A program made the translations under genes and the position numbers. The notes below the pieces were generated by a model. It did not search any database. It was not told the origin of the DNA and was given only the letters and a program-made list of their open reading frames with translations. From contig NZ_CP028858.1 of the NCBI RefSeq assembly GCF_003058365.1, positions 2,406,836 through 2,470,835 on the forward strand: a DNA stretch of 64,000 nucleotides. Direction: 5' to 3'. Of the stretch, positions 6,038-36,606 are shown piece by piece. This stretch comes from Halococcoides cellulosivorans (GTDB taxonomy: Archaea; Halobacteriota; Halobacteria; Halobacteriales; Haloarculaceae). Numbering within the stretch: position 1 is the stretch's first letter; the number at the start of each line of letters is the position of its first letter.

Positions 6038-6697
6038 TTAGACAACTTCAATGTCCAGGATAGTCATATCACCATTCAGAGCGTCTTCCATATAGACACG
6101 CTGATCAAGTACTCCGCTTGGTGACTTGTCCTTCGTGATTTCAAGAGGAAAATAGAAACTTGATGACTCAACATTATCGCAAACTATCACATTATTCTCC
6201 TCATCATAAACTGAGTTCCCCGGTGCGTACTGGGGCACAACACTCAATGAGCCAGTGGAATTAAACCGTAGCTTGTACTCCTCCGTTTCGTTATCAAAAA
6301 TTATGGTAACAAGCACTTTTGCGGTGGGCGCATCTCTATCTTCGCCTGTCTTTGGCACCACCGAATTTTTCCGTTTTAGACGATGGTCCGTTGAGTCAGG
6401 CTCAATAGGATTCCATTCAACAACAACGTGGAACGGACGGTTCTTCCACCAATAAACGCCTGCCGGAACAATGTAAGTCCCGATCGCAACAATAACCAAC
6501 AGATAATACACCCATGCTTCGGTCAAGAAAGGTAAAATATTTGGAAGAAGTTTGTTGCTTGAACTACTGCCGAAGAATACTGTAAAGAGCCAGAACACCG
6601 ACGAGATGGGCGAACTATAGGCAAACCAAACAGACTTATGATATTCCTTTAAAAACAACCATAGCCGCCTCGGAGCAGAGTTTTCCAAAGAAGGCAT
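6038..6697 (-). CDS. Two-helix membrane protein with a C-terminal soluble domain (gene D of the AT-rich operon)
   Basis: A 219-residue protein. Residues about 22-45 and 57-80 form two membrane helices, WFAYSSPISSVFWLFTVFFG and AWVYYLLVIVAIGTYIVPAG. The C-terminal 140 residues, from NRPFHVVVEWNPIEPDS, are polar and beta-rich. It is the last gene of a minus-strand operon, starting only 8 bases after the stop of the preceding gene. Codon use and GC content are low for this genome, indicating recent acquisition. No family recognised. In a putative defence or stress module the membrane-anchored last gene would be the obvious effector candidate, but that is inference from layout only. Confidence 0.75.
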   Translation of the reverse strand: MPSLENSAPRRLWLFLKEYHKSVWFAYSSPISSVFWLFTVFFGSSSSNKLLPNILPFLTEAWVYYLLVIVAIGTYIVPAGVYWWKNRPFHVVVEWNPIEPDSTDHRLKRKNSVVPKTGEDRDAPTAKVLVTIIFDNETEEYKLRFNSTGSLSVVPQYAPGNSVYDEENNVIVCDNVESSSFYFPLEITKDKSPSGVLDQRVYMEDALNGDMTILDIEVV

Positions 6698-6705
6698 TCA
6701 AAAAA

Positions 6706-7341
6706 TCATCTCTCCGCCATCACCGACTCAAAAATTTGGATTACATATTCGCGCTCCCTCCCGTCGCATGATTGTATTTCAAGCGAGTCATCATGGTAAC
6801 GCACGCGAATTGCTTCCCCATCCAACGTAAATTCGAGAACCGCAAGTTCAACCGGGTACTTGCCCTTCATATCGTCCCACTCGACATCTATCTCCATCGC
6901 AGATTTGATGCGGCCACTCGGGGTGATTACTTTGAGGTCTCGAAGATTCCCCCTCTCAATAAACTGCCAGACACGATTCTGATTGGGTACAAAATTCTTT
7001 TTGATTTCAGCGTCTCCATTTATAGCCTGATTGAGTGAACTGAATATCTTCTTTGGGCGAGGGCGGTCATTCTGCGTGTGAAGAATGGCCATTCCAGACC
7101 CAGTGCGCATCTGGAAGGACCCCTCGCCCGTTTCAGGATCACCGAAGCGTGGTGAGGATTCATAATAGTATTCCCCACGCACAATGGTCTGGTCAGGGAA
7201 TGGGTAGTCCGGAAGCTCATCGAACTCTAAAGGGTATTCCGGGTCCTCTTGGAGATCGATCCGAATTTCTTCCGATTCCGGAGACTGGGAAGTATCAAGA
7301 CCGCGCCCAACGCTCGCTTGACGGACGCTTTCAACCCCCAT
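6706..7341 (-). CDS. Unrecognised soluble protein (gene C of the AT-rich operon)
   Basis: A 211-residue acidic protein without signal peptide or membrane helices. An apparently disordered N-terminal 40 residues rich in Ser and Glu is followed by an ordered region beginning IVRGEYYYESSPRFGD. The middle of the protein (GSGMAILHTQNDRPRPKKIFSSLNQA) seems to follow the same plan as part of gene B: a short beta segment, then a helix containing a basic patch. The C-terminus is a beta region plus the helix REREYVIQIFESVM. It lies 64 bases after gene B and 8 bases before gene D. No catalytic motif visible. Confidence 0.75.
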   Translation of the reverse strand: MGVESVRQASVGRGLDTSQSPESEEIRIDLQEDPEYPLEFDELPDYPFPDQTIVRGEYYYESSPRFGDPETGEGSFQMRTGSGMAILHTQNDRPRPKKIFSSLNQAINGDAEIKKNFVPNQNRVWQFIERGNLRDLKVITPSGRIKSAMEIDVEWDDMKGKYPVELAVLEFTLDGEAIRVRYHDDSLEIQSCDGREREYVIQIFESVMAER

Positions 7342-7405
7342 AGTTTACCTTTGAATCTACGTGTGGGGTACTCATACTTGTTGTCCCTACTTTGTTCACC
7401 AGCCC

Positions 7406-8455
7406 CTAAAGATAGTTGAAATCGGTTGGGTCCGCCGTTACCCCCCGTTTTTCCTCATATTCATTGATGAGGTCGTCAACATCGAACGAAAACTCTGCAT
7501 TGTTCCTTGCAGCAGTCTCAGCAAGATCGTCAAAGAACGAGAGAGGCGGATATTTGTCCATTCGGTCCATATCATCTCTCCATTCTTGATAGAGACTTAC
7601 GAACTCCGAAACAAATCGCAGCGCGAGCAAAACACGTTTGAGTTTTGTTTCTGCGTCTTTGATCGCTCCCGCCACCTTTACGTGAATACGTCCTTCCGTC
7701 CGTATTTGTACCTTCAGTGAAGAACCATTCACAGCAAAAAACCCTTCCAACATACGGAACTGCATCTCCTGCAGGAGAGCTGCAATAATTGGTAAGGACT
7801 CAGCAATATTCGAAGAATCTTCAATTCTACCACGATGCCCGAACTGCTCAAGGTCACCGTAAACCTCCGAAGAACTCAGGTCCTCGACCGAAATCGGGCC
7901 AGGGATATACTCTCCCGGCTTGCTATGGCGATAAAGAAGCCAGAGGAAGAAGTCAGGGTCAAACTCAAGATTGTCTACATCAACATGATCACCCATAGCA
8001 GATCTGATGCGTCGTTCTGTGGGATCAACCTTACCCTGAGAACCTTGAATCAGAATGAAATTTGGGTACATCCAGTATACGTAGGCCTCTTCAGTGGACC
8101 TCACCCAGGCATTAGTTTGATCCCCTTCCTCGTCAACGAACTCGTAATCACCGGCGTATTTCTCCCAGATATACCTCCGATCAATCACTGAATTTGCAGT
8201 TTCCAGCAGTTCATCACCAATTACATTCGGTGAGTCTTGGTCAAGTGCAGTGTTCTGGTCCTCCGCAATATCGGCCAGATTAATTTGACTGAAACCTTCT
8301 TTTTTATTGCTAGGACTGCCCCGGGAAAATGGTGGCAAGTCATCAAGTAATTGAGAGCGTATTTCCGTCGGGTCTTCGGCATTCACACTTGCCTCTCGAA
8401 GACCATTAAACACCAGTCTACCATTATAATCAAACTCAGAGATCTCCTGTGACAT
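7406..8455 (-). CDS. Unrecognised soluble protein (gene B of the AT-rich operon)
   Basis: A 349-residue acidic protein with no membrane segment. Predicted layout by eye: a polar N-terminal third, a central mixed domain (AYVYWMYPNFILIQGSQG, then DFFLWLLYRHSKPGEYIPG), a beta region (SLKVQIRTEGRIHVKVAG) and a long helix (DAETKLKRVLLALRFVSEFV) before an acidic tail ending DPTDFNYL. No enzyme motif, zinc site or HTH is obvious. It is the second gene of the operon, 73 bases after gene A. The nature of the family is unknown; the only contextual clue is its place in an AT-rich island beside a dispersed repeat. Confidence 0.78.
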   Translation of the reverse strand: MSQEISEFDYNGRLVFNGLREASVNAEDPTEIRSQLLDDLPPFSRGSPSNKKEGFSQINLADIAEDQNTALDQDSPNVIGDELLETANSVIDRRYIWEKYAGDYEFVDEEGDQTNAWVRSTEEAYVYWMYPNFILIQGSQGKVDPTERRIRSAMGDHVDVDNLEFDPDFFLWLLYRHSKPGEYIPGPISVEDLSSSEVYGDLEQFGHRGRIEDSSNIAESLPIIAALLQEMQFRMLEGFFAVNGSSLKVQIRTEGRIHVKVAGAIKDAETKLKRVLLALRFVSEFVSLYQEWRDDMDRMDKYPPLSFFDDLAETAARNNAEFSFDVDDLINEYEEKRGVTADPTDFNYL

Positions 8456-8528
8456 CCTTACTTATCACTAACCACCATTGGTCACATAAATCTGGTTGTG
8501 TTATCAGTAGTTACGATATAACATGAAT

Positions 8529-9200
8529 CTATTTTAGATAGTGAATGACTTCATCAAGAATAAATTGGAGGTAGTCCTTCGATTCGTAATTGCTCGGTTG
8601 GTAGATCTCAAAGTACCCGCTTTCGGCCATATTAGCTTTTAACATCTGTCCATCGTAAGGATACTCAACTCCCAGCTGATTGAGGTTAGATTCGTGAAGA
8701 ACACCACTCAATTCGTCGTCGCTTAGGAGATCAGTGCCGTGAACAACTCCGTTTTCTGCGTTCCCCAAGTGACCGTAGAACCCAACCTTCCAGGGGTCAG
8801 AATCGTCCTCATGATCTGCCGCGAAGCCCGAGAGATTGATCTCAGCACGCTCAATATTGGTATTCGTCTGCGACCCAATCATTGAATATGCGAACGAACC
8901 AGCTCCACTATCTACAACAACCACTTCACCAGGAACCGTAAGAAACTCAGTATAAGAGGGGACTTTCTGGGGCTCCTCGTATATTGAAATTTCCCCGTTT
9001 TGAATCATTACCTGCTCCCTGTCTTTGACTTGCTCCATAGCCGCATGTCCATAGTAAGCTTCAATTCCGCTAGGCAGTGTGAATCCTCGCCTAACGTCTA
9101 TGCACCGCTTCAATTCGAAATCTCCTTGCTTAACAGTAGTTTCGAAAGACTCCAGTGCATCAAAATTCCCATCGACAGTCCCGATTACTCCGGCCTTCAT
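8529..9200 (-). CDS. Unrecognised soluble protein (gene A of the AT-rich operon)
   Basis: A 223-residue protein, first gene of the four-gene minus-strand operon. It starts MKAGVIGTVDGNFD, is moderately acidic and has no membrane helix. Features by eye are a beta-rich core (VPGEVVVVDSGAGSFAYSM), a charged central loop (FAADHEDDSDPWKVGFYGH) and a C-terminal segment with several aromatic residues (YFEIYQPSNYESKDYLQFIL). AT-rich sequence (TATAAATAC on the plus strand, 9206-9214) lies just upstream; it is very close to the ATG, so the promoter may instead be the TTTAGAG further out. Family unknown. Confidence 0.75.
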   Translation of the reverse strand: MKAGVIGTVDGNFDALESFETTVKQGDFELKRCIDVRRGFTLPSGIEAYYGHAAMEQVKDREQVMIQNGEISIYEEPQKVPSYTEFLTVPGEVVVVDSGAGSFAYSMIGSQTNTNIERAEINLSGFAADHEDDSDPWKVGFYGHLGNAENGVVHGTDLLSDDELSGVLHESNLNQLGVEYPYDGQMLKANMAESGYFEIYQPSNYESKDYLQFILDEVIHYLK

Positions 9201-9312: not shown

Positions 9313-9433
9313 TATCCTGGTGGATCGAAAGAGCGAGCCTGTTTCGAGAACCCCGATGAAGTAAGCACTACAGGGTGCAAAGCACCCGAAGCGCGCAGCG
9401 AGTCGCGGGACCGAAACTGGCGAGGGCTTTCAA
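9313..9433 (+). repeat. Dispersed repeat, copy A
   Basis: Begins TATCCTGGTGGATCGAAAG and ends GAGGGCTTTCAA. Between them are CCCCGATGAAGTAAGCACT and GAAGCGCGCAGCGAGT, both also found in copy B (29701-29940, opposite strand). It marks the right edge of the AT-rich island at 5.0-9.3 kb. Other copies are at 32275-32386 (minus) and 32472-32587 (plus). Confidence 0.75.
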
Positions 9434-9499
9434 AGAAGACCCAGCTATTTCGAACGCTTGTCTGAACGCAATCGAGACGCCTCACTGGCGTTCGGCGTC

Positions 9500-9730
9500 T
9501 CGCTTTGCTCCGCGGCTCTCGGTGGTCGCCGCTCCGCTTCGAGGTTGCTCCCGGCGGTCGTCGCCTCGCTTTGCTCCACGGCTCGCGATCGCTCACCGCT
9601 TCGATTCGAGGCGACTCCCGTCGGTCGTCGCCTCGCTCGTCTCCACGGCTCGCTCTGCTCCGCGGCTCCCGGTGGTCGCCGTTCCGGTTCGAGGTTGCTC
9701 CCTGCGGTCGCAACCTCGCTAGCCACCGGC
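9500..9730 (+). repeat. Three imperfect tandem repeats of about 65-90 bp
   Basis: The unit begins CCTCGCTTTGCTCC(A/G)CGGCTC and runs through a TTCGAGG element to GGTCGTCGCCTC. It occurs at about 9503, 9567 and 9633, the third copy being longer. Several frames are open on both strands across it, an artefact of its composition rather than coding. It lies just before the GTG start of glmU, so it must contain or precede that promoter. Confidence 0.55.
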
Positions 9731-24653: not shown

Positions 24654-26612
24654 ATGAGTGACTCGAACCGGTCGGTCTGGTCGGGCGTCCGCCTCGATCG
24701 GTCGGTCGCGTGGATCGCGATCGTCGCCGCGATCGCGCTGCTCGGACTGCGAATGCTCGCCGCGCAGGTCCTGCTCGTCGTCATCCCGGTGGCGGCCGCC
24801 GGCGGGAGCCTACTCTATCTCGCGACCCGCTCCGGCCACGCGTCGGCGGTCGAGTGGCGCTCGCTCGCGGAGCGCCCCGCACTCACGATCCCGACACTCC
24901 CGGCGTCGATCACCGGCTTTCTACCCGCCGTGGCCGCCCTCGCGCTGACGGGGTTCGTCCTCTCGACACATCTGGCCGGCGTTCGGACGGATCTGAGCAC
25001 GCTGCTCGTCGCCGCGGCCGGAACGGTCGTCCTGGTGCAGATCCTGTTCACCGACCGGATCGCCCCGGGCGTGATCCTCGTCGAGATCCTCGCGGTCGCG
25101 CTCGTCGTCCGCCTGGTGACGCTGGCCGTGACGCCCGGCTACATCGGCGTCGACATCTGGACGCACGCGACGGTCTATATCGCCGGCATCGCCGAGTCGG
25201 GGTCGCTCGCCCCGCTCGCAGAGAGCAAGTACCTCCTCGCGCCCGTCTACCACGGGCTGGGCGCCGTCGGCGCGCTCGCCGTCGACAGTCCGCGCGCGGG
25301 GATCTACCTCACCGTCGGACTGGTCGTCCCGCTGTCGCTCGTTTTCGTCTACGGGACCGCGACCCACCTGGTCGCGACGCGGTGGGCGCTGCTCGCGACC
25401 GCGCTGGTCGCCTTCGCGGATCAGTTCGTCCGGTGGGGGCTGCATCTCATCCCGACGAGTCTCGGCCTGGTCGGCGTCCTCGCCGTCTTGTACGCGCTCA
25501 CGCGCGTCATCGACGACGGGCCCGCTCCCTGGGCGGTCGGGCTGGCGCTGGTGGCCGCGCTCGCCGTCGTCTTCGTCCACCAGGTGTCGACGGCGGTCGT
25601 GCTCGTGATCCTCGCGGTCGCGGCCGGCGTCGTCACGCTGACGTGGGCGACCGGGCAGAGTGACGGGAAGACGGCACTCGCGCTCCTGGGGGTGTTCCTC
25701 GTGACCAGCGCGACGACGCTGGTCGCGTGGGCGCAAGCCCCGTTCGGCGGCGAGACGTTTCTCTGGCGCGAACTCGCGGTCCTCGAATCGGTCCTGATCG
25801 ATCAGGCCGGCTTTCTCGCGCTCGCCAGCACCCAGGAGGCGGTCCTCGGCGGCGCCACGTCGGGCGAGACGACGATCGCCGCGCTCGTCCCGTACGTCGA
25901 ACAGTTCGGGTTCGCACTGTTGCTCGCCGGCGCAGTCACCGGCGGGTTGGCGCTGCTGGAGGGCGATCGGCCGACCGATCTCGCGCTGACGCATCTGTCG
26001 ATCGGCGGGGCCCTCTTCGTGATCGTCTTCGGGCTCTCCTTGTTCGGCGTGCGCGCACTGCTGCCCGGGCGGTGGCTGGCCCCGCTGTATGCCGCGCTCG
26101 CCGTCCTCGCCGTGATCGGCGTCGGCGCGATCGCCCGGTCTCGGTCGCGGCGGGTCGTCCTCGCCGCGCTCGTCGTGCTCGCGGTCGGCTATCCCGCGTC
26201 GATGGCCGTCGCCGAGAAGGCCACCATGGAGAACCCGACCTTCGAGGACACCCACAAGCGGTTCGCCTACACGCACGCCGAGATCGCCGCCGTGGATTCG
26301 ATTTCGGCCGCCCACCCGCCCGGCGATCGAGCGATCGCGACCGACCACCCCTACGCGTCGCTGTTCAGACGCTACGGCGGCTACGAGACCGACGCCCGGA
26401 TCGTCGGGTTGGGTGCGGGCGGGCCCGACGCCGACTGGGTGGTCTACCGCACCGAGCAGTCGACCGGCCCGGTCACGTTCGATCGGTCCGCGACGGCCCC
26501 GCTCGACACGCTGCCCCCGAACGTCGAGGGGACGGTCTGTCCGCCGTCGTACAACACCGGCTACGCCAACGACGAAGTCCGTCTCTGTACGGCGTCGGGA
26601 GGTGACCGATGA
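24654..26612 (+). CDS. Polytopic membrane protein, likely GT-C-type glycosyltransferase
   Basis: A 652-residue integral membrane protein with about 12-13 hydrophobic segments in the first 520 residues and a soluble C-terminal domain of about 120 residues (from NPTFEDTHKRFAYTHAE). An acidic residue in the first outside loop (GYIGVDIWTHATVYIAG) sits where GT-C enzymes keep a catalytic Asp. It could add sugars from polyprenyl-phosphate donors outside the membrane; haloarchaeal relatives are annotated only as membrane proteins. It overlaps the next gene by 4 bases and begins a three-gene operon. Confidence 0.72.
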   Translation: MSDSNRSVWSGVRLDRSVAWIAIVAAIALLGLRMLAAQVLLVVIPVAAAGGSLLYLATRSGHASAVEWRSLAERPALTIPTLPASITGFLPAVAALALTGFVLSTHLAGVRTDLSTLLVAAAGTVVLVQILFTDRIAPGVILVEILAVALVVRLVTLAVTPGYIGVDIWTHATVYIAGIAESGSLAPLAESKYLLAPVYHGLGAVGALAVDSPRAGIYLTVGLVVPLSLVFVYGTATHLVATRWALLATALVAFADQFVRWGLHLIPTSLGLVGVLAVLYALTRVIDDGPAPWAVGLALVAALAVVFVHQVSTAVVLVILAVAAGVVTLTWATGQSDGKTALALLGVFLVTSATTLVAWAQAPFGGETFLWRELAVLESVLIDQAGFLALASTQEAVLGGATSGETTIAALVPYVEQFGFALLLAGAVTGGLALLEGDRPTDLALTHLSIGGALFVIVFGLSLFGVRALLPGRWLAPLYAALAVLAVIGVGAIARSRSRRVVLAALVVLAVGYPASMAVAEKATMENPTFEDTHKRFAYTHAEIAAVDSISAAHPPGDRAIATDHPYASLFRRYGGYETDARIVGLGAGGPDADWVVYRTEQSTGPVTFDRSATAPLDTLPPNVEGTVCPPSYNTGYANDEVRLCTASGGDR

Positions 26613-27490
26613 CCGATCGGAGCGGCGGGCGGCCGTGGGGCCTGCTCGTCGTCCTCGTCGGCACGCTGCTCGCGAGCGCGGCACTGCTCGCGCCGGGCGT
26701 CCCCCGACCGATCGAGTGGGTGGCGGCGGTGGGACTGCTGGTGGTCTTCCCCGGCGCGGCGCTGGTCGCCGCGTTCGTGCCGGCACGCGGACCCGACGAC
26801 CAGCCGGGGACGGCGCTGCGCGTCGGCCTGACGGTCGGCGGGAGCGCGCTCGTCGTCGGCGTCGTCGGGGCGGGCCTGGCCGCCGTCGAGGTGCTCACGC
26901 TGACGACCGCCGTCGTCGCGCTGGCGGCGATCGTCACCCTCGGGACGCTCGTCGGGGCCGTCCGCTGGCGTCGATCGGGGCTCGCTATCCTCGACTGGCC
27001 GGCCTCGCGCGCCGACGTCCACGATCGGCTCGGCCTGTCGACACTCCAGACCGTCGTGCTCGCCGTTGCGGCGCTCGCGCTCCTCGGAACGCTCGGCGTC
27101 GCCGCGATGCCCGCGTCCGGTGGGTCGTACTCGGAGGTCTCGCTGCTCGACACCGACGAGCGCCTGCTCGGCCCGGGCGCGCTCGCCGTCGACGGATCGA
27201 CGACGCTCCTCGTCCGGATCGACAACCACGAGGGCCACACCGTCACCTACCACGTCGTCGGGCAGCGCCAGCGCGTCGGCCCGGACGGTGCGGTGGGTGA
27301 CCCCCAGGAGATCGATCGCTTCGAGGTCTCGATCGACGACGACACGGTCGCGCTCGCGGAGCGGCCGATCGACGCACCCGCCGAGCGCTCGCAGTTGCGC
27401 TACCTGGTCTACGAGGGATCGGTCCCCGCAGAGCCCGACGCGTCGAATGCCGACCTGGTCGTCCGCCAGACCCTGGAGGGAGCGGCGTGA
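26609..27490 (+). CDS. DUF1616-like membrane protein
   Basis: A 293-residue protein. Four hydrophobic helices cover residues about 8-155 (LLVVLVGTLLASAALLAPG, WVAAVGLLVVFPGAALVAAF, GSALVVGVVGAGLAAVEVL, VVLAVAALALLGTLGVAAMP). A beta-rich outside domain of about 130 residues follows (YSEVSLLDTDERLLGPGAL to the end). The FPGAALVAAFVP motif is typical of DUF1616 proteins, which accompany glycan and S-layer glycosylation genes in haloarchaea but have no known activity. It is coupled on both sides by ATGA-type overlaps. Confidence 0.75.
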   Translation: MTDRSGGRPWGLLVVLVGTLLASAALLAPGVPRPIEWVAAVGLLVVFPGAALVAAFVPARGPDDQPGTALRVGLTVGGSALVVGVVGAGLAAVEVLTLTTAVVALAAIVTLGTLVGAVRWRRSGLAILDWPASRADVHDRLGLSTLQTVVLAVAALALLGTLGVAAMPASGGSYSEVSLLDTDERLLGPGALAVDGSTTLLVRIDNHEGHTVTYHVVGQRQRVGPDGAVGDPQEIDRFEVSIDDDTVALAERPIDAPAERSQLRYLVYEGSVPAEPDASNADLVVRQTLEGAA

Positions 27491-28476
27491 GCGATCACTC
27501 GCCGGCGGCCGATCGGCACGCGCTCGCGACCGACGACGACCCGATCGACGGAAGCGACATCGGGCGCGCGCTGGTGACCGGCGGCGCGGGCTTCGTCGGC
27601 CACCACCTCGTCGACGCGCTCGACGCTGTCACCGACGTGTGCGTGCTCGACGATCTCTCCACGGGATCGCTCGCGCGTGTCCCGGACGGCGTCGAGACCC
27701 ACGTCGGTGACGTCCGCGATCCCGACACGCTCGGGGCGGCGACCGCCGACGTCGACGTGATCTTCCATCAGGCGGCCCGGATCAGCGTCGAGCGGTCGAT
27801 CGAAGAGCCCATCGACACCGAGAGCGTCAACGTCGAAGGCACGCTCGCCGTCCTCGACGCGGCCCGGCGGGCCGACGCCCGCGTCGTGTTCGCCTCCAGC
27901 GCGGCGATCTACGGCGACCCCGAGACCGTCCCCGTCCCCGAGTCCGCCCCCCAGCGGCCCGCCTCACCCTACGGCGTCAGCAAATCGGCGGCCGATCGGT
28001 ACGTCCGGCTGTACGAGGAGCTCTACGGGCTCCCGACGGTGTCACTCCGCTATTTCAACGCCTACGGGCCCGGCGCGTCGGCGGGCGTCGTCCGGGCGTT
28101 TCAGGAGCGCGTGCGGCGTGGCGAACCGTTGATCGTCGAGGGCGACGGCGGCCAGACCCGCGATTTCGTCCACGTGCGCGACGTCGTCCGGGCGAATTTG
28201 CAGGCCGCGACGACCGACGCGGTCGGCGCGGCGTTCAACGTCGGGACCGGAGAGCGCGTGACGATCGAAGCACTCGCCGAGCGCGTCCAGGCGGCCAACG
28301 GCGTCGATCGGCCGGTGGAGTTCGTCGAGGCCCGCGACGGCGACGTGCGACACAGTTGTGCGGACGTCAGTGCTGCGCGCGAAGCGTTGGGCTTCGAGGC
28401 CCAGATCGAGCTCGACGAGGGGTTGCGGCGGCTTGCCGGTGCGGAGCGGCCGGCGGCAGAGTCGCGACAGGACTGA
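27487..28476 (+). CDS. NAD-dependent nucleotide-sugar epimerase/dehydratase
   Basis: A 329-residue extended short-chain dehydrogenase. It has the NAD-binding GGAGFVG loop after an N-terminal extension of about 30 polar residues, FHQAARISVERSIEEP, the catalytic triad Ser in FASSAAIYG and YGVSK (Tyr-x3-Lys), and FNAYGPGA before the C-terminal substrate domain. UDP-glucose 4-epimerase-like enzymes have this pattern; dehydratases or decarboxylases of the same fold cannot be excluded. It ends the operon that begins with the polytopic membrane protein (GTGA overlap, 4 bases). Confidence 0.88.
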   Translation: MSDHSPAADRHALATDDDPIDGSDIGRALVTGGAGFVGHHLVDALDAVTDVCVLDDLSTGSLARVPDGVETHVGDVRDPDTLGAATADVDVIFHQAARISVERSIEEPIDTESVNVEGTLAVLDAARRADARVVFASSAAIYGDPETVPVPESAPQRPASPYGVSKSAADRYVRLYEELYGLPTVSLRYFNAYGPGASAGVVRAFQERVRRGEPLIVEGDGGQTRDFVHVRDVVRANLQAATTDAVGAAFNVGTGERVTIEALAERVQAANGVDRPVEFVEARDGDVRHSCADVSAAREALGFEAQIELDEGLRRLAGAERPAAESRQD

Positions 28477-28689
28477 CGTCCGTCTCGGCATCTCCTCGAC
28501 ACCCTCCCACACTGTGACGATTTGGGTGGTGTCCCACACACAGGTCTGCCGATCGTCGATTGAGTTGAGTAATGGGCCAAGCGACGCCCCAGTAATCAAT
28601 TCGATCTGGGACAGATTGACTGACTCGGGTGTATCGCGGCCAGTATTCAATCCCGACTCACGAGTCCGTCTCTGTTATGTGTATACCTG

Positions 28690-28773
28690 CTATTCTTTCA
28701 TCAGGATATAGATGGAAATTCCCAGACCAAAAATCTGGAGAAGAATTGAGACAAGTTCGATAAGCAGAATCAT
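28690..28773 (-). CDS. 27-residue hydrophobic peptide (tentative)
   Basis: ATG at 28773 gives MILLIELVSILLQIFG and a short end, IYILMKE. It is almost entirely hydrophobic, in AT-rich DNA with typical low-GC island codons. A longer frame (start upstream at about 28855 or beyond) is also open but looks non-coding. This is a possible membrane peptide at the left edge of the second AT-rich island; support is weak. Confidence 0.3.
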   Translation of the reverse strand: MILLIELVSILLQIFGLGISIYILMKE

Positions 28774-29117
28774 ATTTTGTTCTTTCGTTCTATTCGTACA
28801 TTTATGGATTGGCTCATGAGTGTTCGAGCCAGAGCCATATTGTTTTACCATATCAGAAACCGCAGTAATAAATGGTAGAGCACTTCCTGCGGGTCTTTCC
28901 CGCATATCACAAATTAGAATATTGGCGCGATTTTGTGATACACTCATATAACACATTAATATACCCAGACATAAAAAAGTTTCGATATACACATTGTTTT
29001 GAGTTATTGAGTCTATCTGTGGAGAAATAGAAACAAGAACGTATTTAAATATTTGATTTCGGAGCGTAGACGGTCGAAAGCGTGAGCGGGTAAAACGCCC
29101 CGTATTCTCCCCCAACG
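28774..29117. other. AT-rich intergenic stretch
   Basis: Low-GC sequence between the tentative small peptide and the TFS-like gene. It contains a short hairpin TGCGGGTCTTTCCCGCA (about 28889-28905) and many A/T runs. No gene with credible codon use was found. Confidence 0.4.
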
Positions 29118-29435
29118 TCAGGATGCGCGCCACTTGTGACCACACTCGACGCAGGTGAACAGCCGCACCTCGTACGCGCCGCCCGGTTTGGGCATCATCG
29201 CGGAGGTGGCCCGCTCGCTGTCACAGTCCGGGGCCGGGCAGGACGCTTCGACCGTCTCGCTGGTCTCCTCGGTCGTGTCGGCCACATCGGGCGCTCCGTC
29301 GTCGGTCTGTCCCTCCCGGGTCGCCATCTCGGCCTCGGCCTCAGAGTCCCGCGGCGTCTCGTGCTCACAGGACCGACACACCCACGTGTCCTCCTCTGTG
29401 TGCATGATCGACCCGCACTCGTCACAGAACTGCAT
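29118..29435 (-). CDS. Transcription factor S / RPB9-RPA12-like zinc-ribbon protein with altered acidic loop
   Basis: A 105-residue protein. The N-terminal zinc ribbon has Cys4, 7, 20 and 23 (CDECG, CRSCEH), joined by an acidic disordered linker to a C-terminal ribbon with Cys66, Cys71, Cys95 and Cys98 (VECGHKW). In transcript-cleavage factor S the C-terminal ribbon carries an Asp-Glu pair in RSADEPETR; here the matching positions are Gly86-Ala87 in MPKPGGAYEVRLF. The first pair of C-terminal cysteines is spaced by four residues, not two. It may therefore bind RNA polymerase without promoting cleavage, or be a polymerase-independent ribbon. Confidence 0.82.
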   Translation of the reverse strand: MQFCDECGSIMHTEEDTWVCRSCEHETPRDSEAEAEMATREGQTDDGAPDVADTTEETSETVEASCPAPDCDSERATSAMMPKPGGAYEVRLFTCVECGHKWRAS

Positions 29436-29700
29436 GTGCTGTCCGCATACTGGATTGTCGGGTTTATGTGTTCATGTCCAGTGCGTCGTGGCCCTGGCCC
29501 CTGTCGTGCGTGAGTCCGCGTCATCGACTGGTCCACCGGCACCGTTCGATCGGGGCCACGGCAGGTCCACCACGGGCGTACGGTCAAGCCGAACGGCGCG
29601 GTCACTGAACGCCAGAACGACCGCTGGATGGCTCTCGCGTTCGACTCGCCCGGTTCGTACGGTAGTGTTCAGATGCGAACCTGACTCTGGTGAGACGACC
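29436..29700. other. GC-rich intergenic stretch, no gene seen
   Basis: Region between the TFS-like gene start and copy B of the dispersed repeat. Open frames occur on both strands but none has gene-like context. With copy B and the 107 bases after it, it makes a 612-base interval without a gene. Confidence 0.35.
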
Positions 29701-29940
29701 TTGAAAGCCCTCGTCAGTTCCTGTCCCGCGACTCTCACGGGTCGCTCCGCTCGCGGTTTCACCGCTCGCAATCGAGACGCTCACTCCGTTCGCGTCTCGC
29801 AACGCTCCCCGTTCGAGCGGACGTGGCCTCGCTTTGCTCGGCCACGCACTCGCTGCGCGCTTCGGGCGCTACGCGCCCTGCAGTGCTTGCTTCGTCGGGG
29901 TTTCCGGAACTGACTCGCCCTTTCGGTCCACCAGGATATA
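29701..29940 (-). repeat. Dispersed repeat, copy B (longest copy)
   Basis: On the minus strand it runs from TATATCCTGGTGGACCGAAAG to ACGAGGGCTTTCAA. Relative to copy A it carries about 120 extra bases made of palindromes, for instance GTGGCC/GGCCAC around 29823-29846, GAGACG/CGTCTC around 29775-29798 and GGGCGCTACGCGCCC around 29864-29878. The conserved ends and the internal GCGCGCAGCGAGT block match copy A. Confidence 0.75.
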
Positions 29941-30047
29941 GCTCATTTGCCGCGTGAAGGAGTTCTTTGGACGGTACTTGTCTGAAAAGCGCCCGAAAAT
30001 GACAGAGACAGAGGTTTATGGATGAGGACGCCTGATACTGTACCATA

Positions 30048-30530
30048 ATGCCGTGGAATGCTCTAACAGACAGGATTCTCACTGGAAGTAAGCGTAAGAA
30101 AATATTGGAGGTTGAGAATCAATCCGAGTACGACCAGTGGGTTTCCGAACTCTTCTCCGAAATAGGGGTATTCGTAAAGCGAGTAAATGACCTTGATCTG
30201 AGCCAGGCAGAAGACCGGGCCCAATTCGACAATTTTGCTGAAAAGTTTTCTGACCGGCTCCTTGAATTGCGGAAGCGTAGTGAATCGTCATCTGCTCCTA
30301 CTGAGACGTTGATACAGTTGGAAGAGTTGGTCGAAAAGATTGACGAAACTTCTTCGCAGATGGCATTCACGAGCGTGTATTGCGGCGATGACCCATTTGA
30401 GAAGGCGAGGCTGGAGAAGAAAAGGAAAGAGCGCGAAGGGGAGAATACGGAGAGGGCGCGCGAGAAACGTGATGCGCTTGCAGATGAGATTCAAGAACTT
30501 ATTACGACCTTTGAAGGCACCGGATCTTGA
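30048..30530 (+). CDS. Coiled-coil protein of unknown function
   Basis: A 160-residue highly charged, mostly helical protein. Heptad-like patterns run through residues 20-120 (DQWVSELFSEIGVFVKRVND, FSDRLLELRKRSES, TLIQLEELVEKIDETS) and a Lys/Glu/Arg-rich helix (EKARLEKKRKEREG onward) closes it. No signal peptide or membrane helix. DNA is lower in GC than the chromosome average. It is the first gene inside the island framed by repeat copies B and D/C. Function unknown; structural or partner-binding roles are typical of such proteins. Confidence 0.7.
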   Translation: MPWNALTDRILTGSKRKKILEVENQSEYDQWVSELFSEIGVFVKRVNDLDLSQAEDRAQFDNFAEKFSDRLLELRKRSESSSAPTETLIQLEELVEKIDETSSQMAFTSVYCGDDPFEKARLEKKRKEREGENTERAREKRDALADEIQELITTFEGTGS

Positions 30531-30694
30531 GACGTAGGTAATTTTTGTATGGTCTGGAGCAACCGGTGATTGTTCGGATAGTACCGATGTTGGGTGTCAA
30601 GACTAACAATGGAAAGCGGAGAGATCGTATTTCTTCTATCAAGTCACCGCGGCCAAGTAGTTATATAAATTATTTCTGATGTTTATAAAATACT

Positions 30695-31297
30695 CTAATT
30701 GACACTACTTAAAACGAAACGATACATATGACGAATAGTTGGCCACCCGATATCGTCGTTTTCTACCAGTAGTGACGTCTTGAGAGCAGTATAGAAAATA
30801 ACCGCGAACAGTCCAATAGCAAGTGTCGGCATTGCCCATGGACTTAGCGACACTTCGAAAATTCCATCAGTCATCTCAAGCGTGCTCATCCAATCAAGAA
30901 TATAGAAAGCGATGAAAGATCCCCCAACAAAGACCGCGAATGTAGTCAACCGATTTATTTCAATCACAGTTTCCTTCCTTGAATGGGTTTTTCCTGATAT
31001 TTCACTTGCTAAAGCGTCCGTGACAGGCCACCTTGACTCAGGGCGATTCAGCCAGTAGATCTTTGTCTGTTTTCCCGCCTTTGTATCCAATAGCGCTCCT
31101 ATTTCAACAAGTTCATTGAGTCGTTGACGGGCTGCTTCATCGCTAAGGTCAGTTATATCGGCCACAGCTGATTTGCTCAGAAACGGTTTGTTTGCCTGCA
31201 CGAAGCACCGGAGTATTGCTTCATCTAGTACAGTTACCTCGGAAGGATCGTTTAGGATATCCCGATCAATGAAATCCGGAAGTTCAGATCCAGTCAT
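30695..31297 (-). CDS. Winged-helix protein with two C-terminal membrane helices
   Basis: A 200-residue protein. Residues about 20-90 form a winged helix (VLDEAILRCFVQANKPFLS, SDEAARQRLNELVEIGALLD, then KQTKIYWLNRP as the wing). Two hydrophobic helices follow near 110-130 (TTFAVFVGGSFIAFYILDW) and 150-172 (PWAMPTLAIGLFAVIFYTAL), and the end is soluble. A DNA-binding domain anchored in the membrane is a recurring haloarchaeal design for regulators that read membrane or surface events. AT-rich, island-type codon use. It converges on the coiled-coil gene and diverges from the 31672 membrane gene, which may be its target. Confidence 0.78.
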   Translation of the reverse strand: MTGSELPDFIDRDILNDPSEVTVLDEAILRCFVQANKPFLSKSAVADITDLSDEAARQRLNELVEIGALLDTKAGKQTKIYWLNRPESRWPVTDALASEISGKTHSRKETVIEINRLTTFAVFVGGSFIAFYILDWMSTLEMTDGIFEVSLSPWAMPTLAIGLFAVIFYTALKTSLLVENDDIGWPTIRHMYRFVLSSVN

Positions 31298-31671
31298 GGC
31301 TCGTTGGATGGTTTAGTCCAGGGTTCCCTTGAATATCGCCATGATTTATCGGATGGCAACTAGCAATTGGTGGTCGCCAACTGGCCATTCAACAGGTCGT
31401 ATAATATCCGTAAGCAGGAATGATAGCCCGTGTTCCGAGAAATCAGCGATCGGGCCAAATACATCCTACCTGGGGCAGGAGAAGCATCGATATCCAGTAA
31501 CCAATTCAGAAAGTACAATGACCTAAAGACACTGCTGGAAGCAACATCGATAGGATCCTTTTCTCCGAAAAGCCCGGCTACTCCATCAAGTCAGGTCAGG
31601 ATCTGCCCTTGTGAGACCCTGTATGGTGCCAGTCATGAAGCAAACAATCCCGTCGATACCCACACAGATAC
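31298..31671. other. 374-bp region between divergent island genes
   Basis: Moderately AT-rich. A frame at 31430-31681 is open for 83 codons but runs into the start of the next gene and has no family look, so I treat it as non-coding. Promoters for the two divergent genes should lie here; I see no clear paired operator. Confidence 0.35.
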
Positions 31672-32187
31672 ATGGCACTAATCGAGATCCACCATCGTCT
31701 TGAAGCGAGTGGCTACAAACCGTGGCAGATGTATTTTCTGGGAATATCTATCCTGGCCGCTGGTAGCCTCTTCTTCGATATCGGAGTGGTTCACTCATTG
31801 CTTCAGGATATCGAATCCCATCTCTCACCGTGGGACTGGCTAGTGATTTTGGGGATTCAAGGTATTCTAATCGGATTCGTCGCAGATCTGTTTTACGAGC
31901 AAGGCAATGGGTATGTCAAGATCGCCAGCGATCTGTTCGGGTCAAAAGATCGAACGCTTCTATTCCGAGTCGGGATAATGACCGTGGTGTCTGGTATTAT
32001 AACAATAGTCGTTCCGACCGTACTCAGAGCAGTAACTGAATTGCTCGTTATTCAGACAACAGGAGCAGTAATCCTGCTTGGGATTGTACTAATTCACATG
32101 GAGATCCGTGATTGGAATGCGAGGACCGAATGGCCCGCAATCGTGGCAGGAGGAGTACTTGCAATCGCACCAAGTCTATTTCTCTGA
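31672..32187 (+). CDS. Five-helix integral membrane protein
   Basis: A 171-residue protein with hydrophobic segments at about 18-38 (MYFLGISILAAGSLFFDIG), 52-72 (WLVILGIQGILIGFVADLF), 95-118 (FRVGIMTVVSGIITIVVP), 122-142 and 153-170. Loops are short and the first cytoplasmic stretch is basic and polar. No transporter or enzyme signature is visible. It is divergent from the winged-helix membrane protein, so the two may be functionally paired. Low GC places it with the island genes. Confidence 0.68.
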   Translation: MALIEIHHRLEASGYKPWQMYFLGISILAAGSLFFDIGVVHSLLQDIESHLSPWDWLVILGIQGILIGFVADLFYEQGNGYVKIASDLFGSKDRTLLFRVGIMTVVSGIITIVVPTVLRAVTELLVIQTTGAVILLGIVLIHMEIRDWNARTEWPAIVAGGVLAIAPSLFL

Positions 32188-32274
32188 TTTTGGTCTACTT
32201 CCCTTCGGCCAGGTCTTGTTTAGACGCTAGAAAACAGCTGTTCCAACTCCTCTACGCCGATCGAAGAAAGAAGA

Positions 32275-32386
32275 TTGAAAGCCCTCGGCACGCTTGCGCA
32301 CACTCAGCCGGATATCCTCGCTGGCGCTCGGATAGTGACGGCTGAGACGCACGCGAGGCGACCGAGCCCTTTCAGTTTACCAGAAA
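32275..32386 (-). repeat. Dispersed repeat, copy D (diverged)
   Basis: Read on the minus strand it has TTCTGGTAAACTGAAAGGGC at one end and CGAGGGCTTTCAA at the other, with a different interior including TATCCGAGCGCCAGCGAGGATA, a palindrome-like block (shown here in part). It faces copy C, 85 bases away. Confidence 0.55.
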
Positions 32387-32471
32387 ACTTCGTATTCTGG
32401 TCGCCCGAAAATCTTCGATTTTCGCAGGCCGCCAGGAATTCGGTCGTATCGCCAGTCTATGGGCATCACTG

Positions 32472-32587
32472 TCCTGGTGGATCGAAAGGGTGAACCCGTC
32501 TCGCGTGTCGCTCTGTGACCGCTATCCGAGTGAGCAACGCGAGCGAGGATATGTCACAGAGCGGCCGCGAGCGGGTGAGGGCTTTCA
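32472..32587 (+). repeat. Dispersed repeat, copy C
   Basis: Starts TCCTGGTGGATCGAAAGGG and ends GGTGAGGGCTTTCA. The interior contains an imperfect palindrome: GTCGCTCTGTGAC near 32506-32520 pairs with GTCACAGAGCGGC near 32553-32565. The interior differs from copies A and B while the ends are conserved. It marks the right edge of the second AT-rich island. Confidence 0.65.
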
Positions 32588-32719
32588 CCCTCACCTCGAA
32601 AAAAGCGATGAACGTGGTGAATTTGGGCGTCTAAACAGGACTGAACCGAAGAAAAGAACCTATCAAAAACATATCCCATACATACCCAGAGTGAAATACG
32701 AGCCACACCCGAAACCCCC

Positions 32720-34507
32720 TCACTCCACCGTCACGCTTTTCGCCAGATTCCGCGGCTTGTCGATCGACCGCCCGAGCGACGAGGCGGCGTGATAGGCGAG
32801 CAACTGCAGTTGCACGTTCGTCAGGATCGGCGTCAGATCGGGGTGGACAGCGGGGACGGTCAACGCGTCGTCGGCCACCTCGACGATGTCGGTCATCGTC
32901 CGGGGCGCGATCGCGACGACCGGGGCGCCACGCGTCTGGACCTCGCGGATCGCGCTCTCGATCTTGCCCGCGTCGCGGCCGGTACAGACCGCGAACACGG
33001 GGGTCTTCTCGGTGACGAGCGCGAGCGGGCCGTGTTTGAGTTCGCCAGCGGGGAAGCCCTCCGCGTGTTCGTAGGTGATCTCTTTGAACTTGAGTGCGCC
33101 CTCCATCGCGACCGGGACGCCGTTGCCCCGACCGAGGAAGAAGTGGCCGTCCTCACCGAGATACTCGTCGGCCAGGCGGGCGGCCCGCGACCCGTCGAGC
33201 ACCGTCTCGACCGCGTCGGGCAGTTCGTCCATCCCGTCGAGGGCCGCGGCCGCGGGCGGGTCGGTGACGACCGACGCGACCTCGCGAGCGAGGAGATAGA
33301 GTGTGACGACCTGTGAGGAGAACGTCTTCGTCGCCGCGACGCCGATCTCCGGGCCGGCGCGGATGAACACCGTGTCGTCGCTCTCGCGGGCGGCCGTCGA
33401 GCCCACGACGTTGGTCACCGCGAGGCGGGTCGCGCCGCGGTCGCCCGCGACCGAGAGCGCGTCGAGCGTGTCGGCGGTCTCGCCGCTCTGGGTGACGCCG
33501 ACGACGAGCGCGTCTTCCATCGGCGGCGGGTAGACCGAATACTCGCTGGCGAGGGAGGCCGTCGCCTCGACGCCCCACGAGCGGAGCTGGTGAGCGCCGT
33601 AGAGCGCCGCGTGGTAGGAGGTGCCACAGGCGACGAACTGGACGCTGTCGACGCCGGCGAGCGTCTCGGGCGAGAGGTCGAGGCCGTCCTCGACGCGGCC
33701 CTCGATGGTCTGGGCGAGCGAGACCGGCTGTTCCTGGATCTCCTTGAACATGTAGTGGTCGTAGCCACCCTTCTCGGCGGCCTCGGGGGCCCAGTCGATG
33801 GTCTCGACCGGGCGGTCGACCGGCGCGCCCGACCGATCGGTGATCGCGTAGTCGTCGGGCCGGACGACCGCGACGTCACCGTCGTCGAGGTAGACGACCT
33901 GCTCGGTGAACTCGACGAACGCGGGGACGTCGCTCGCGAGGTAGTTCGCGCCCGTCCCGACGCCGAGTACGAGCGGCGAGCCCTCGCGGGTCGCGAACAC
34001 GCCGTCGACGCCGTCGACGACCATCGCGACGGCGTAACTCCCCTCCAGATGGGAGATGGCCTCGCGGAACGCCGTCTCGGGGTCCGCGCCTGCGTCGAGG
34101 GCCTCGCTGACGAGATGCGGGACGACCTCGGTGTCGGTCTCGCTGGCGAAAGTGTGCCCGCGCTCGCGCAGGGCGGCCCGAAGCGCGTCGTGGTTGTCGA
34201 TGATGCCGTTGTGGACGACCGCGACCCGGCCCGTACAGTCGGTGTGGGGGTGGGCGTTCGCGTCGGAGGGCGCGCCGTGCGTGCTCCAGCGGGTGTGCCC
34301 GATGCCCACGCGACCGCTTGGACCGCCGTCGGCCAGCGCCGCCCGGAGGTCCGCGACCTCGCCCGCGCGCTTCGTGACGGAGATGCCGTCGCCGTTCGAC
34401 AGCGCGATGCCCGCCGAGTCGTACCCGCGGTATTCGAGGTTTTCGAGACAGTCGATGAGCGTCTGGGCGGCGTCGCCGTCGCCCGCGCTGGCGGTGATCC
34501 CACACAT
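32720..34507 (-). CDS. glmS: Glutamine--fructose-6-phosphate aminotransferase (isomerising)
   Basis: A 595-residue enzyme making glucosamine-6-phosphate from fructose-6-phosphate and glutamine, the entry to UDP-GlcNAc synthesis. Cys2 (MCGITAS) is the N-terminal glutamine-hydrolysing nucleophile; GHTRWSTHGAPSDANAHPH is the glutaminase signature. Two SIS sugar-isomerase domains follow (VACGTSYHAALYG, VTQSGETADTLDAL; FLGRGNGVPVAMEGALKFKE with EHAEGFPAGELKHGPLAL). It ends with the family signature KPRNLAKSVTVE. Full length and intact. It is monocistronic, next to the second repeat-framed island. Confidence 0.96.
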   Translation of the reverse strand: MCGITASAGDGDAAQTLIDCLENLEYRGYDSAGIALSNGDGISVTKRAGEVADLRAALADGGPSGRVGIGHTRWSTHGAPSDANAHPHTDCTGRVAVVHNGIIDNHDALRAALRERGHTFASETDTEVVPHLVSEALDAGADPETAFREAISHLEGSYAVAMVVDGVDGVFATREGSPLVLGVGTGANYLASDVPAFVEFTEQVVYLDDGDVAVVRPDDYAITDRSGAPVDRPVETIDWAPEAAEKGGYDHYMFKEIQEQPVSLAQTIEGRVEDGLDLSPETLAGVDSVQFVACGTSYHAALYGAHQLRSWGVEATASLASEYSVYPPPMEDALVVGVTQSGETADTLDALSVAGDRGATRLAVTNVVGSTAARESDDTVFIRAGPEIGVAATKTFSSQVVTLYLLAREVASVVTDPPAAAALDGMDELPDAVETVLDGSRAARLADEYLGEDGHFFLGRGNGVPVAMEGALKFKEITYEHAEGFPAGELKHGPLALVTEKTPVFAVCTGRDAGKIESAIREVQTRGAPVVAIAPRTMTDIVEVADDALTVPAVHPDLTPILTNVQLQLLAYHAASSLGRSIDKPRNLAKSVTVE

Positions 34508-34953
34508 TACAGCTCACCAGCCGCGAGCGGCGAACGATCGGTGCGGTGGGCCACGAGACCGTCTGCGGGCCGACAGTGTCCGATCGATCGCTCCGACCGG
34601 GCGAGCGCGACCTCCGTGGCTCTCCGTTGGTTCGACATGAGTGTCCAGACAACGCCGCCGATCGGGCTTTGTTATGGATCCATTGGCGATGCATCACGAC
34701 AGTAATCGACGCATACCCCGCACGACCCGGCGAGCACCGACCGACCGACAGCGGCCACGAGACGTCGATCTGTGGGCGAAAGGGGGTCGAGTCGGACAAC
34801 CCACAGGCGATTCACTCGATAGAGGGTGACACTTGTCGATTGTTAAAATATGCCCCCTTCATCAACGAGGCGCCCATTGTTCGAATCAAGAGGATCGGCG
34901 TCGGTCGGTCTCCATCGTGGACAAACGCACGGTGACCGATCGCTCCCCAGCCA
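34508..34953. other. 446-bp intergenic region upstream of the first DUF7344-like gene
   Basis: Between divergent glmS and the 34954 gene. TTAAAATAT at about 34843-34851 resembles the TATA region of the second paralogue (35833-35841), and in both cases it lies about 103-111 bases before the ATG, suggesting a conserved promoter and a leader of about 80 bases. No gene seen. Confidence 0.45.
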
Positions 34954-35577
34954 ATGATTTCCACCATTCAATCACTCCTCCGGACTGACACCGGCGGTCC
35001 ACCTTCCCCCGAACCAGTCGCATCGACGGACGAAAACGACCACCCTGCGGACGGACGCGAATCGGACGCCGACCCCGGGGAGCGACCGTTCGAGATCGAC
35101 CAGGTGTTCGAGATCCTGAAAAACGAGCGGCGCCGGCGCGTCCTGGATCACATACAGGAGGCCGACGGCCAACTCACGCTCGGTGACCTGGCCGAACGCA
35201 TCGCCGCCGAGGAGTGTGAGAAGCCGATCAGCCAGATCAACTCCCAGGAGCGCAAGCGCGTCTACGTCGGCCTGTACCAGTGTCACCTCCCGAAGATGGA
35301 CGACATCGACGCGATCGAATACGACAAAGCGCGCGGGACGATCGCGTTGGGCGAGGCGTTCGCGCACTTCGAACGGTATCTCCCGGACGAGCGCCCGGCC
35401 GATCCGGACTGGCACACCTATCTCCACGGCGTCTCGGTGCTCGGACTCGTCACGATTCCGCTGGTCGCCGTGCTCGGGGCGACGACGACGGGCGCGATCT
35501 GGCAGCCAGTGGTGGCGCTCACGGTCGCGACCGCGTTCGCGGTCGGGGCCGCGCTCGCCGTTCTCGCGACCTACTGA
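34954..35577 (+). CDS. DUF7344-like winged-helix protein with C-terminal membrane helices (paralogue 1)
   Basis: A 207-residue protein. After a disordered acidic N-terminus of 48 residues comes a winged-helix domain of the DUF7344 type: FEIDQVFEILKNERRRRVLD, LTLGDLAERIAAEECEKP, ERKRVYVGLYQCHLPKMD and AIEYDKARGTIALGEA. Two hydrophobic helices end the protein (HGVSVLGLVTIPLVAVLGAT, WQPVVALTVATAFAVGAALA). Such proteins are widespread, multi-copy and unassigned in haloarchaea; membrane-tethered regulation is the likely mode. It forms a tandem pair with 35944. Confidence 0.85.
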   Translation: MISTIQSLLRTDTGGPPSPEPVASTDENDHPADGRESDADPGERPFEIDQVFEILKNERRRRVLDHIQEADGQLTLGDLAERIAAEECEKPISQINSQERKRVYVGLYQCHLPKMDDIDAIEYDKARGTIALGEAFAHFERYLPDERPADPDWHTYLHGVSVLGLVTIPLVAVLGATTTGAIWQPVVALTVATAFAVGAALAVLATY

Positions 35578-35804
35578 TGCCCGCACGTTTCGTGACGGGG
35601 ACCGCCGTCGCTCACGGGTAGAGATTCCAGCGTGGATTGGCGACCGCCGTCGATCGGGGAGTGGGGTGGAACCGTTCGCGACCCCCGGACGGTAATCGAC
35701 GCGTACTCCGGGCCGCCCCGACGGTCGTCTCTGCCGGAAGACGCCACGAAACACGCTCTCCTGGCCGATACCGGATTCGATATCGGGCAGACCAGAGGAG
35801 TGTT

Positions 35805-35851
35805 ACTCGTTTAATGAGTACACCACATTAGGGTTAAAATATACCACATTA
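35805..35851 (+). promoter_or_regulatory. Putative operator: palindrome plus two direct repeats around a TATA box
   Basis: ACTC-GTTTAAT-GAGT at 35805-35819 is a short palindrome. ACCACATTA occurs twice, at 35822-35830 and 35843-35851, exactly 21 bases (two helical turns) apart, and the TATA-like TTAAAATAT lies between them. This arrangement suits repression or activation by a dimer at the promoter of the 35944 gene. The first paralogue lacks the repeats. Confidence 0.5.
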
Positions 35852-35943
35852 ATCCGGAGTGACACCAATTGGCGTACCACGCGGATTCGACGCGATCGAT
35901 CACGACCCCGTGACTCCAGACGCCCTCGACCGCGAGACATCGT

Positions 35944-36606
35944 ATGATCACCCGACTCACCACACTCCTTCGATCGGACGGCGGCGGCCCGCGAGGGCCC
36001 GAGAGTGCAGTCTCTGCAGCCGACAGCGACGATCGAACAGCCACACAGAGACCAGACGCGGACCCGTCGGCAATCGAGGGAGACGGATCGAGCGTCGAGG
36101 CCGAACAGCCACCGTTCGAGGTCGACCAGGTGTTCGAGATCCTGAAAAACGAGCGGCGCCGGCGCGTCCTGGACCACCTGCGCGAGTCGGAGGAAGGCCA
36201 ACTCACGCTCGGTGACCTGGCCGAACAGATCGCCGCCGAGGAGTGTGAGAAACCCGTCAGTCAGATCAACTCCCAGGAGCGCAAGCGCGTCTACGTCGGC
36301 CTGTATCAGTGTCACCTCCCGAAGATGGACGACATCGACGCGATCGAATACGACAAGTCCCGCGGGACGATCGCACTGGGCGATGCATTCGCGCACTTCG
36401 AACGGTATCTCCCGGAGGATCGAGCGGCCGACGAGGACTGGCGCAGCTATCTCCACGGAATCTCGGTGCTCGGACTCGTCACGATTCCACTGGTCGCCTT
36501 TCTCGGAGCCATGACGACGGGATCGATCTGGCAGCCGATACTGGCGCTCACCATCGCGAGTTCCTTCGCGATCGGAGCCGGTCTCGCCGTGCTCGCGACC
36601 CGCTAG
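35944..36606 (+). CDS. DUF7344-like winged-helix protein with C-terminal membrane helices (paralogue 2)
   Basis: A 220-residue paralogue of the gene 366 bases upstream. The winged-helix core and the membrane helices are nearly identical even at DNA level (for example FEILKNERRRRVLDHL, then SQINSQERKRVYVGLY and LHGISVLGLVTIPLVAFLG), while the first 60 residues, rich in Ser, Asp and Thr, are unrelated apart from the initial MITRLTTLLR/MISTIQSLLR. That contrast suggests duplication with gene conversion in the core, or diversifying N-termini. A repeat-containing operator lies about 95-140 bases upstream, unlike the first copy. Confidence 0.85.
   Translation: MITRLTTLLRSDGGGPRGPESAVSAADSDDRTATQRPDADPSAIEGDGSSVEAEQPPFEVDQVFEILKNERRRRVLDHLRESEEGQLTLGDLAEQIAAEECEKPVSQINSQERKRVYVGLYQCHLPKMDDIDAIEYDKSRGTIALGDAFAHFERYLPEDRAADEDWRSYLHGISVLGLVTIPLVAFLGAMTTGSIWQPILALTIASSFAIGAGLAVLATR

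Follow-up and report, generated by a model that had tools for sequence, protein, structure and literature searches.

The DNA analyzed here, referred to as the window, is a stretch of 64,000 nucleotides that corresponds to positions 2406836-2470835 of the single 2.72 Mb chromosome of the haloarchaeon Halococcoides cellulosivorans. Between its convergent epimerase and glmS genes the window carries a composite insertion (28477..32719), which includes three ORFs located where a preliminary description of this DNA had placed them: a 160-aa gene on the forward strand (30048..30530), a 200-aa gene on the reverse strand (30695..31297), and a 171-aa gene on the forward strand (31672..32187). The region had been described as an AT-rich island, and indeed its GC content is 0.447 and 0.482 per kb, compared with about 0.65-0.72 across most of the window; for GC3, the island genes have 0.41-0.53 and the epimerase and glmS genes on either side 0.89-0.92. 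The interval between epimerase and glmS is ~4.2 kb here and about 80 bp in G066, where the two genes are convergent neighbours, and in G073 the neighbour of glmS is the orthologue of the gene at 26609-27490 of the window; therefore, positions 28477-32719 are extra DNA in this genome. The insertion also includes a stand-alone zinc-ribbon protein (29118-29435) related to transcription factor S/RPB9 (Pfam Zn_ribbon_RPB9, 3.9e-9; NCBIfam TFS, below its cut-off). Another AT-rich island, the first in the window (6038-9200), contains four unnamed ORFs with GC3 values of about 0.46-0.53. The three genes had also been considered unrecognised; this holds for the family libraries but not for sequence relatives, given that the divergent pair and, separately, the 160-aa gene have close ones, and the earlier observation as a whole is partly confirmed.

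The reverse-strand gene is predicted to encode a membrane-anchored winged-helix regulator (wHTH-2TM), with the wHTH at about residues 25-84 and the transmembrane (TM) segments at residues 117-135 and 160-178. A winged-helix membrane protein had been proposed, in agreement with the two C-terminal hydrophobic segments and with sub-threshold Pfam matches to TBPIP (2.8e-4; 21.2 bits vs a cut-off of 22.8) and HTH_24 (0.011; 15.7 vs 21.9). By hydropathy, two C-terminal TM segments are found in the regulator of the window, two in that of locus L046, and one above threshold in that of L049. The C-terminal tail is conserved (TSLLVENdDxGWPTIRRVYR). The divergent gene encodes a 171-aa protein with five hydrophobic segments (5-TM), as had been noticed before, and a conserved loop, FGSKDRTL. 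This membrane protein has no match over a cut-off in Pfam, NCBIfam or PHROGs, and the regulator receives no family name from the same libraries. Both genes are under purifying selection, with dN/dS values of 0.17-0.26 for the regulator and 0.18-0.28 for the membrane gene among the window and G073 copies. AlphaFold2 models built from three-row alignments reached a mean pLDDT of 46 and 40, too poor to use. Regarding a phage or virus origin, no relative was found in the phage collection or in viral contigs.

The extent of the pair as a unit was established by DNA homology. When positions 28000-34600 of the window were compared by BLASTN with the two loci of G073 that carry relatives of these genes (L045 and L046), each gave a single match spanning both genes (30697-32189 with L045 and 30719-32200 with L046), and the flanks gave nothing save one 48-bp repeat piece. 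In a three-way alignment the identity is 73-90% inside the genes and falls to 33-41% outside; the similarity to either G073 copy ends with the stop codons of the two genes. These limits define a mobile two-gene cassette of ~1.5 kb (30697..32200). A family search with the regulator gave three strong relatives outside this genome, at 73% and 67% in G073 and at 62% in G065, Halorarius halobius (Haloarculaceae). The membrane protein has a relative at each of these three sites, and this genome holds a second copy of it (53%). Of 392 sampled genomes of the order, 14 contain the membrane gene (E<=1e-4) and six the regulator (E<=1e-15); a family search in a further 125 genomes added one weak regulator. 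The eight strong regulator copies belong to seven genomes, namely this genome (G000), G073 (twice), G065, G288 (Halorubrum lacusprofundi), G297 (Natronobiforma cellulositropha), G352 and G231, and in all eight the regulator is divergent from the membrane gene. The membrane gene does not always need the regulator, since it is found without it at four of 12 close loci (the second copy of this genome, G026, G324 and G064) and at more distant ones; it is carried on plasmids by strain DL31, by Halorarius and by Halorubrum lacusprofundi, where the cassette resides on pHLAC01. The H. lacusprofundi strain ACAM34_UNSW no longer has pHLAC01 and is susceptible to virus HRTV-DL1 (PMC10544981); the time points published for infection, 32 h and 56 h, are late ones. 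The distribution of the cassette is patchy and non-syntenic: a conserved position in many relatives, which would have spoken against movement, was not observed, given that no two of the compared genomes carry the cassette at the same place. As judged from these comparisons, the wHTH-2TM/5-TM pair is a discrete mobile divergent cassette.

Across the eight cassettes the intergenic region measures 133 to 377 bp, and its alignment leaves a single conserved block. In the window this block is a putative operator of 32 bp (31356..31387), with two CCAAC-type half-sites 21 bp apart, that is, about two helical turns. Of its 32 columns, 17 are invariant; among the other 98 columns of the 130 bp preceding the regulator, 14 are. 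The site lies just upstream of the TATA-like element of the regulator gene (31329..31337, reverse strand), which all eight copies conserve; on the other side, the TATA-like element of the membrane gene (31399..31405, forward strand) follows after about 11 bp. Both elements are putative and were assigned by eye, the former from conservation and spacing. The distance from the operator to the start of the regulator is 57-58 bp in all eight copies, and to the start of the membrane gene 44-288 bp; in the window the length-variable leader of the latter occupies 31406..31671 (forward strand). Allowing up to 3 mismatches, the operator pattern occurs eight times in 10 genomes, once in each cassette, and a reversed control pattern has no match. 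Since the pattern was built from the same eight copies, the independent evidence is its absence elsewhere: the site was not found in G026, G064 and G324, nor at the second membrane-gene copy of this genome, all of which lack the regulator partner. The idea of a regulator-target pair, put forward in the preliminary description, is strengthened by the divergent order in the eight copies and by a conserved site, unique to the cassette, between the two promoters. The presence of one site per cassette and its absence where there is no wHTH partner support a dedicated, self-regulating regulator-target pair in which binding of the regulator to the operator is predicted, and conservation of this kind would be expected if a regulator acts on the divergent promoter of its own gene.

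A hidden gene of 83 aa in the intergenic region (31430-31681), open in all three aligned copies, was rejected because its dN/dS is 0.58-0.81 and it shows no codon-position bias, and a search for non-coding RNA gave no Rfam match up to E 0.5. The 374-bp intergenic regions of the window and of the two G073 copies align without a gap. Between the genes the two G073 copies are 93% identical (130/130 in the middle), above the 81% and 90% observed in the genes, which suggests a recent exchange between them.

The history of the pair was approached by comparing identities between and within families. The copies of Halorarius (family f1) and G231 (family f12) are 82% and 76% identical, and those of Halorarius and the window, both of f1, 61% and 64%. 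For glmS, the identity of Halorarius with G288, G297 and G352 is only 55-63%, while that of the regulator between them is 70-73%; G231 gave no glmS match in this comparison. In addition, the distances of the partner proteins are correlated over the eight copies (r = 0.65, permutation p = 0.0016). The fact that identity across families exceeds that within a family, together with the correlated distances, points to horizontal transfer of the two genes as a pair.

The genes around the cassette copies were then considered. Neighbouring ORFs of 120-1500 aa were scanned with PADLOC, and a match with E<=1e-20 was taken as a defence hit; the count covers the 12 close membrane-gene loci, and leaves aside six distant relatives of the membrane gene (E 1e-16 to 1e-24) as well as the copy on the DL31 plasmid (L051, 31% identity). 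A defence hit is present at at least seven of the 12 loci; the regulator is present at four of these (L045, L046, L083 and L050) and absent at three (L048, L085 and L088). In G073, L045 includes McrC (Pfam, 2.8e-59), an McrB-like AAA protein and a DrmD/BrxHII-like helicase (6.6e-119), and L046 includes BrxA (6.6e-147), BrxC and SoFic (1.4e-99); one cassette copy lies about 0.3 kb from mcrC and the other 0.4 kb from brxA, and G073 has no further McrC or BrxC-family hit. The other loci carry a GmrSD-like gene (L083; HEC-05, 7.3e-200), a PD-(D/E)XK nuclease (L050; PDC-S26, 4.8e-28), the methylase HmaB (L085; 1.1e-49) and PDC-S54 (L088; 1.4e-93). At L048, where the second membrane-gene copy of this genome resides, BrxC, a helicase fragment (5.4e-30) and, ~2.6 kb away, brxA were found. 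At L049 a ResIII helicase adjoins the copy, with a best PADLOC match of just 2.9e-15, and at L086 an AAA_21/AAA_15 ATPase lies about 5.4 kb away. The neighbourhoods of the window, L089 and L098 were scanned once, and among the matches listed, which correspond to 25 of 48 families, no defence gene was recognised beside the cassette of the window.

As a whole, the 105 ORFs of the cassette neighbourhoods matched 48 PADLOC families, including BrxA, BrxC, DrmD, HEC-05 and SoFic. At the same threshold, 106 control ORFs from 12 regions of the same contigs, chosen by fixed position and unmatched for island location, matched 20 families, represented only by Cas12f/Cas12u, Csx1 and PD-T4-6 models. Cas12f/Cas12u models match transposon TnpB proteins as well, and PD-T4-6 is kinase-like. 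Variable islands collect defence genes anyway, and the neighbourhood may therefore reflect hitch-hiking. Two side observations were made at these loci. In the BREX locus of this genome (L048:8893-12908), the second membrane gene (53%) stands without a regulator and brxA is preceded by a rhomboid gene (Pfam, 1.7e-13). A protein of ~285 aa recurs by eye near cassette copies (L083:10585-11439, L045:1180-2037 and L089:9889-10749); the C-terminal part of its L083 member matches RPA-type single-stranded DNA-binding models, and it is probably part of a plasmid backbone.

The reading that we favor, with a probability of roughly 0.6, is that of a self-contained mobile cassette, formed by a regulator with a private operator and a 5-TM protein, that most likely serves antiviral islands as an accessory. 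The structure of the cassette and its conserved site follow from comparison of the copies; we infer the binding, what is sensed, in which direction control works and the defence role. The tethered wHTH would bind the private operator between the genes and control its own gene and the five-TM gene; as the operator is close to both TATA-like elements, one bound regulator could govern both promoters. The membrane domain of the regulator, or its conserved cytoplasmic tail, would receive a signal at the membrane, which the five-TM partner might provide, so that a tethered regulator sensing a change at the membrane would switch on the five-TM protein, which would then act in the membrane. A role in defence is plausible.

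The strongest competitor, possible although clearly behind, is that the five-TM protein is an ordinary accessory transporter or a stress-response membrane protein with its own regulator, and that its closeness to defence genes comes from a common location in plasmid-derived variable islands. The plasmid-type genes found near several copies (TFB, the RPA-like gene, a primase and coupling-protein-like genes) would fit this explanation, as would the window and Natronobiforma copies, which have no recognised defence neighbour, and the fact that wHTH proteins with two C-terminal TM segments are common in haloarchaea. It accounts less well for the position of both G073 copies, which abut the single McrC and the single BrxC-family hits of the genome, and for the PADLOC hits (E<=1e-20) at at least seven of the 12 close loci.

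A bolder extension of the favored reading, which we regard as doubtful, is that the cassette is an undescribed archaeal antiviral module: the wHTH protein would be the sensor of a viral membrane event and would induce, through its private operator, a five-TM effector, adding a second, membrane-based line of defence to islands of the BREX, McrBC and GmrSD types. According to it, a regulator/rhomboid-like pair at L123 would be a second version, in which intramembrane proteolysis releases the regulator. In this pair (L123:529-2046, G460) 112 bp separate a distant wHTH-2TM regulator from a divergent gene for a seven-TM, rhomboid-like protein (Pfam Rhomboid 6.9e-4, below the cut-off), and a function in regulated intramembrane proteolysis is possible. 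Since this regulator has the same build, tethered wHTH proteins may be combined with divergent membrane partners more widely.

It is unlikely that the two genes form an addiction pair of the toxin-antitoxin kind, with the five-TM protein as a membrane toxin and the tethered wHTH as its repressor and antidote. The cassette resembles such systems in being a small, divergent and mobile pair that may occur more than once per genome and has an autoregulatory-looking operator; against this, the membrane gene stands without the regulator at the four close loci mentioned above, one of them in this genome, and the usual order of toxin-antitoxin genes is co-directional with the antitoxin linked.

The remaining gene of the island (30048..30530, forward strand) encodes a soluble, charged protein of coiled-coil type and lies outside the cassette. 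It appeared to be an orphan when found in one of 58 genomes, its own, a view overturned by relatives with 72-73% identity on Haloarcula marismortui pNG600 and on a Halobacterium salinarum plasmid. The DNA homology with these plasmids is limited to that gene (30039-30514), and on them the relative overlaps the end of a ~407-aa gene that is absent here; the gene travels separately from the wHTH/5-TM pair. Given that its relatives are found elsewhere, on plasmids, the island is best described as a mosaic, and the three genes are not one unit. On the left side, a dispersed repeat (29701..29938, forward strand; copy B of the preliminary description) is a genuine element with 22 pieces in the genome; other pieces are found at 9313-9603, at the first AT-rich island. 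The island had been reported to be flanked by inverted copies of this repeat, which does not hold: the counterpart on the right (copy C/D) shares just 22 nt with the end of copy B (32472..32493, reverse strand; 91%). The repeat does not accompany the cassette copies of G073, Halorarius, Halorubrum, G231, G352 or Natronobiforma, the nearest exception being the 48-bp piece, 8.4 kb from the cassette in L045. It is therefore highly improbable that the three genes (30048-32187) are a single transposable unit bounded by an inverted repeat, as had been suggested: the repeat is present on the left and its pieces adjoin AT-rich stretches in places (L003, L004 and L005), but the right end matches over those 22 nt only, the other cassette copies lack the repeat, the coiled-coil gene has its relatives elsewhere with another partner, and the three aligned copies share no sequence outside the two stop codons of the kind sought for an IS, a MITE or a composite transposon. 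The earlier interpretation is, in consequence, partly supported.

Several known regulators can be compared with that of the cassette; ArnR and, with regard to the defence setting, BrxR come closest, but it lacks a feature of each, as detailed below. CadC/LysP, in which LysP is the membrane partner of CadC, and ToxR/ToxS likewise join a membrane-anchored winged-helix regulator to a membrane partner; these systems differ in being bacterial, with a single TM helix and a periplasmic sensing domain. The haloarchaeal DUF7342 and DUF7344 proteins of Pfam have a wHTH, as predicted for the regulator, which scores 19.1 bits against DUF7342 (cut-off 31.6) and has no match to DUF7344. Tandem duplicate DUF7344-type wHTH genes occur in the window (34954-36606), with repeat blocks 91% and 82% identical located about 1.03 kb apart; by eye, they share C-terminal hydrophobic segments with the regulator.

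BrxR has a DNA-binding region of the wHTH type. It is a WYL-domain repressor of defence islands, a transcription regulator located beside diverse defence systems (PMC9122601). A similar co-location is seen here, with defence genes at at least seven of the 12 close partner-gene loci and the regulator at four of them. Unlike BrxR, the regulator of the cassette is predicted to be membrane-tethered, has no Pfam hit to a WYL domain at E<=1, and its predicted operator would control its own divergent gene and, as far as seen, not the neighbouring system. ArnR and ArnR1 of Sulfolobus are membrane-bound one-component regulators. Like the cassette regulator, ArnR is archaeal and has two C-terminal TM segments; it has an N-terminal HTH, to which the putative wHTH of the cassette regulator, with its matches below the cut-offs, would correspond, and it binds promoters while tethered (PMC6396743). 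ArnR carries HAMP and sensor domains between the HTH and the membrane and its targets are archaellum and pilus promoters (PMC6396743); in contrast, the cassette regulator has a ~30-residue linker, no HAMP or sensor-domain Pfam hit at E<=1, and a site private to one divergent partner.

A limited literature search found no published description of the cassette, which on sequence grounds is real, unnamed, mobile and predicted to be self-regulating. The control of defence islands in haloarchaea is little understood, and few membrane-tethered regulators have been studied in archaea, ArnR being the example. The regulatory claim is testable: the predicted operator has 32 bp, only one target is predicted, and the cassette occurs naturally in Halorubrum lacusprofundi, Halorarius halobius and Natronobiforma. 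If the link with defence is true, a membrane arm would be added to archaeal immunity; the pair is a testable candidate accessory of that immunity, scattered among salt-loving archaea.
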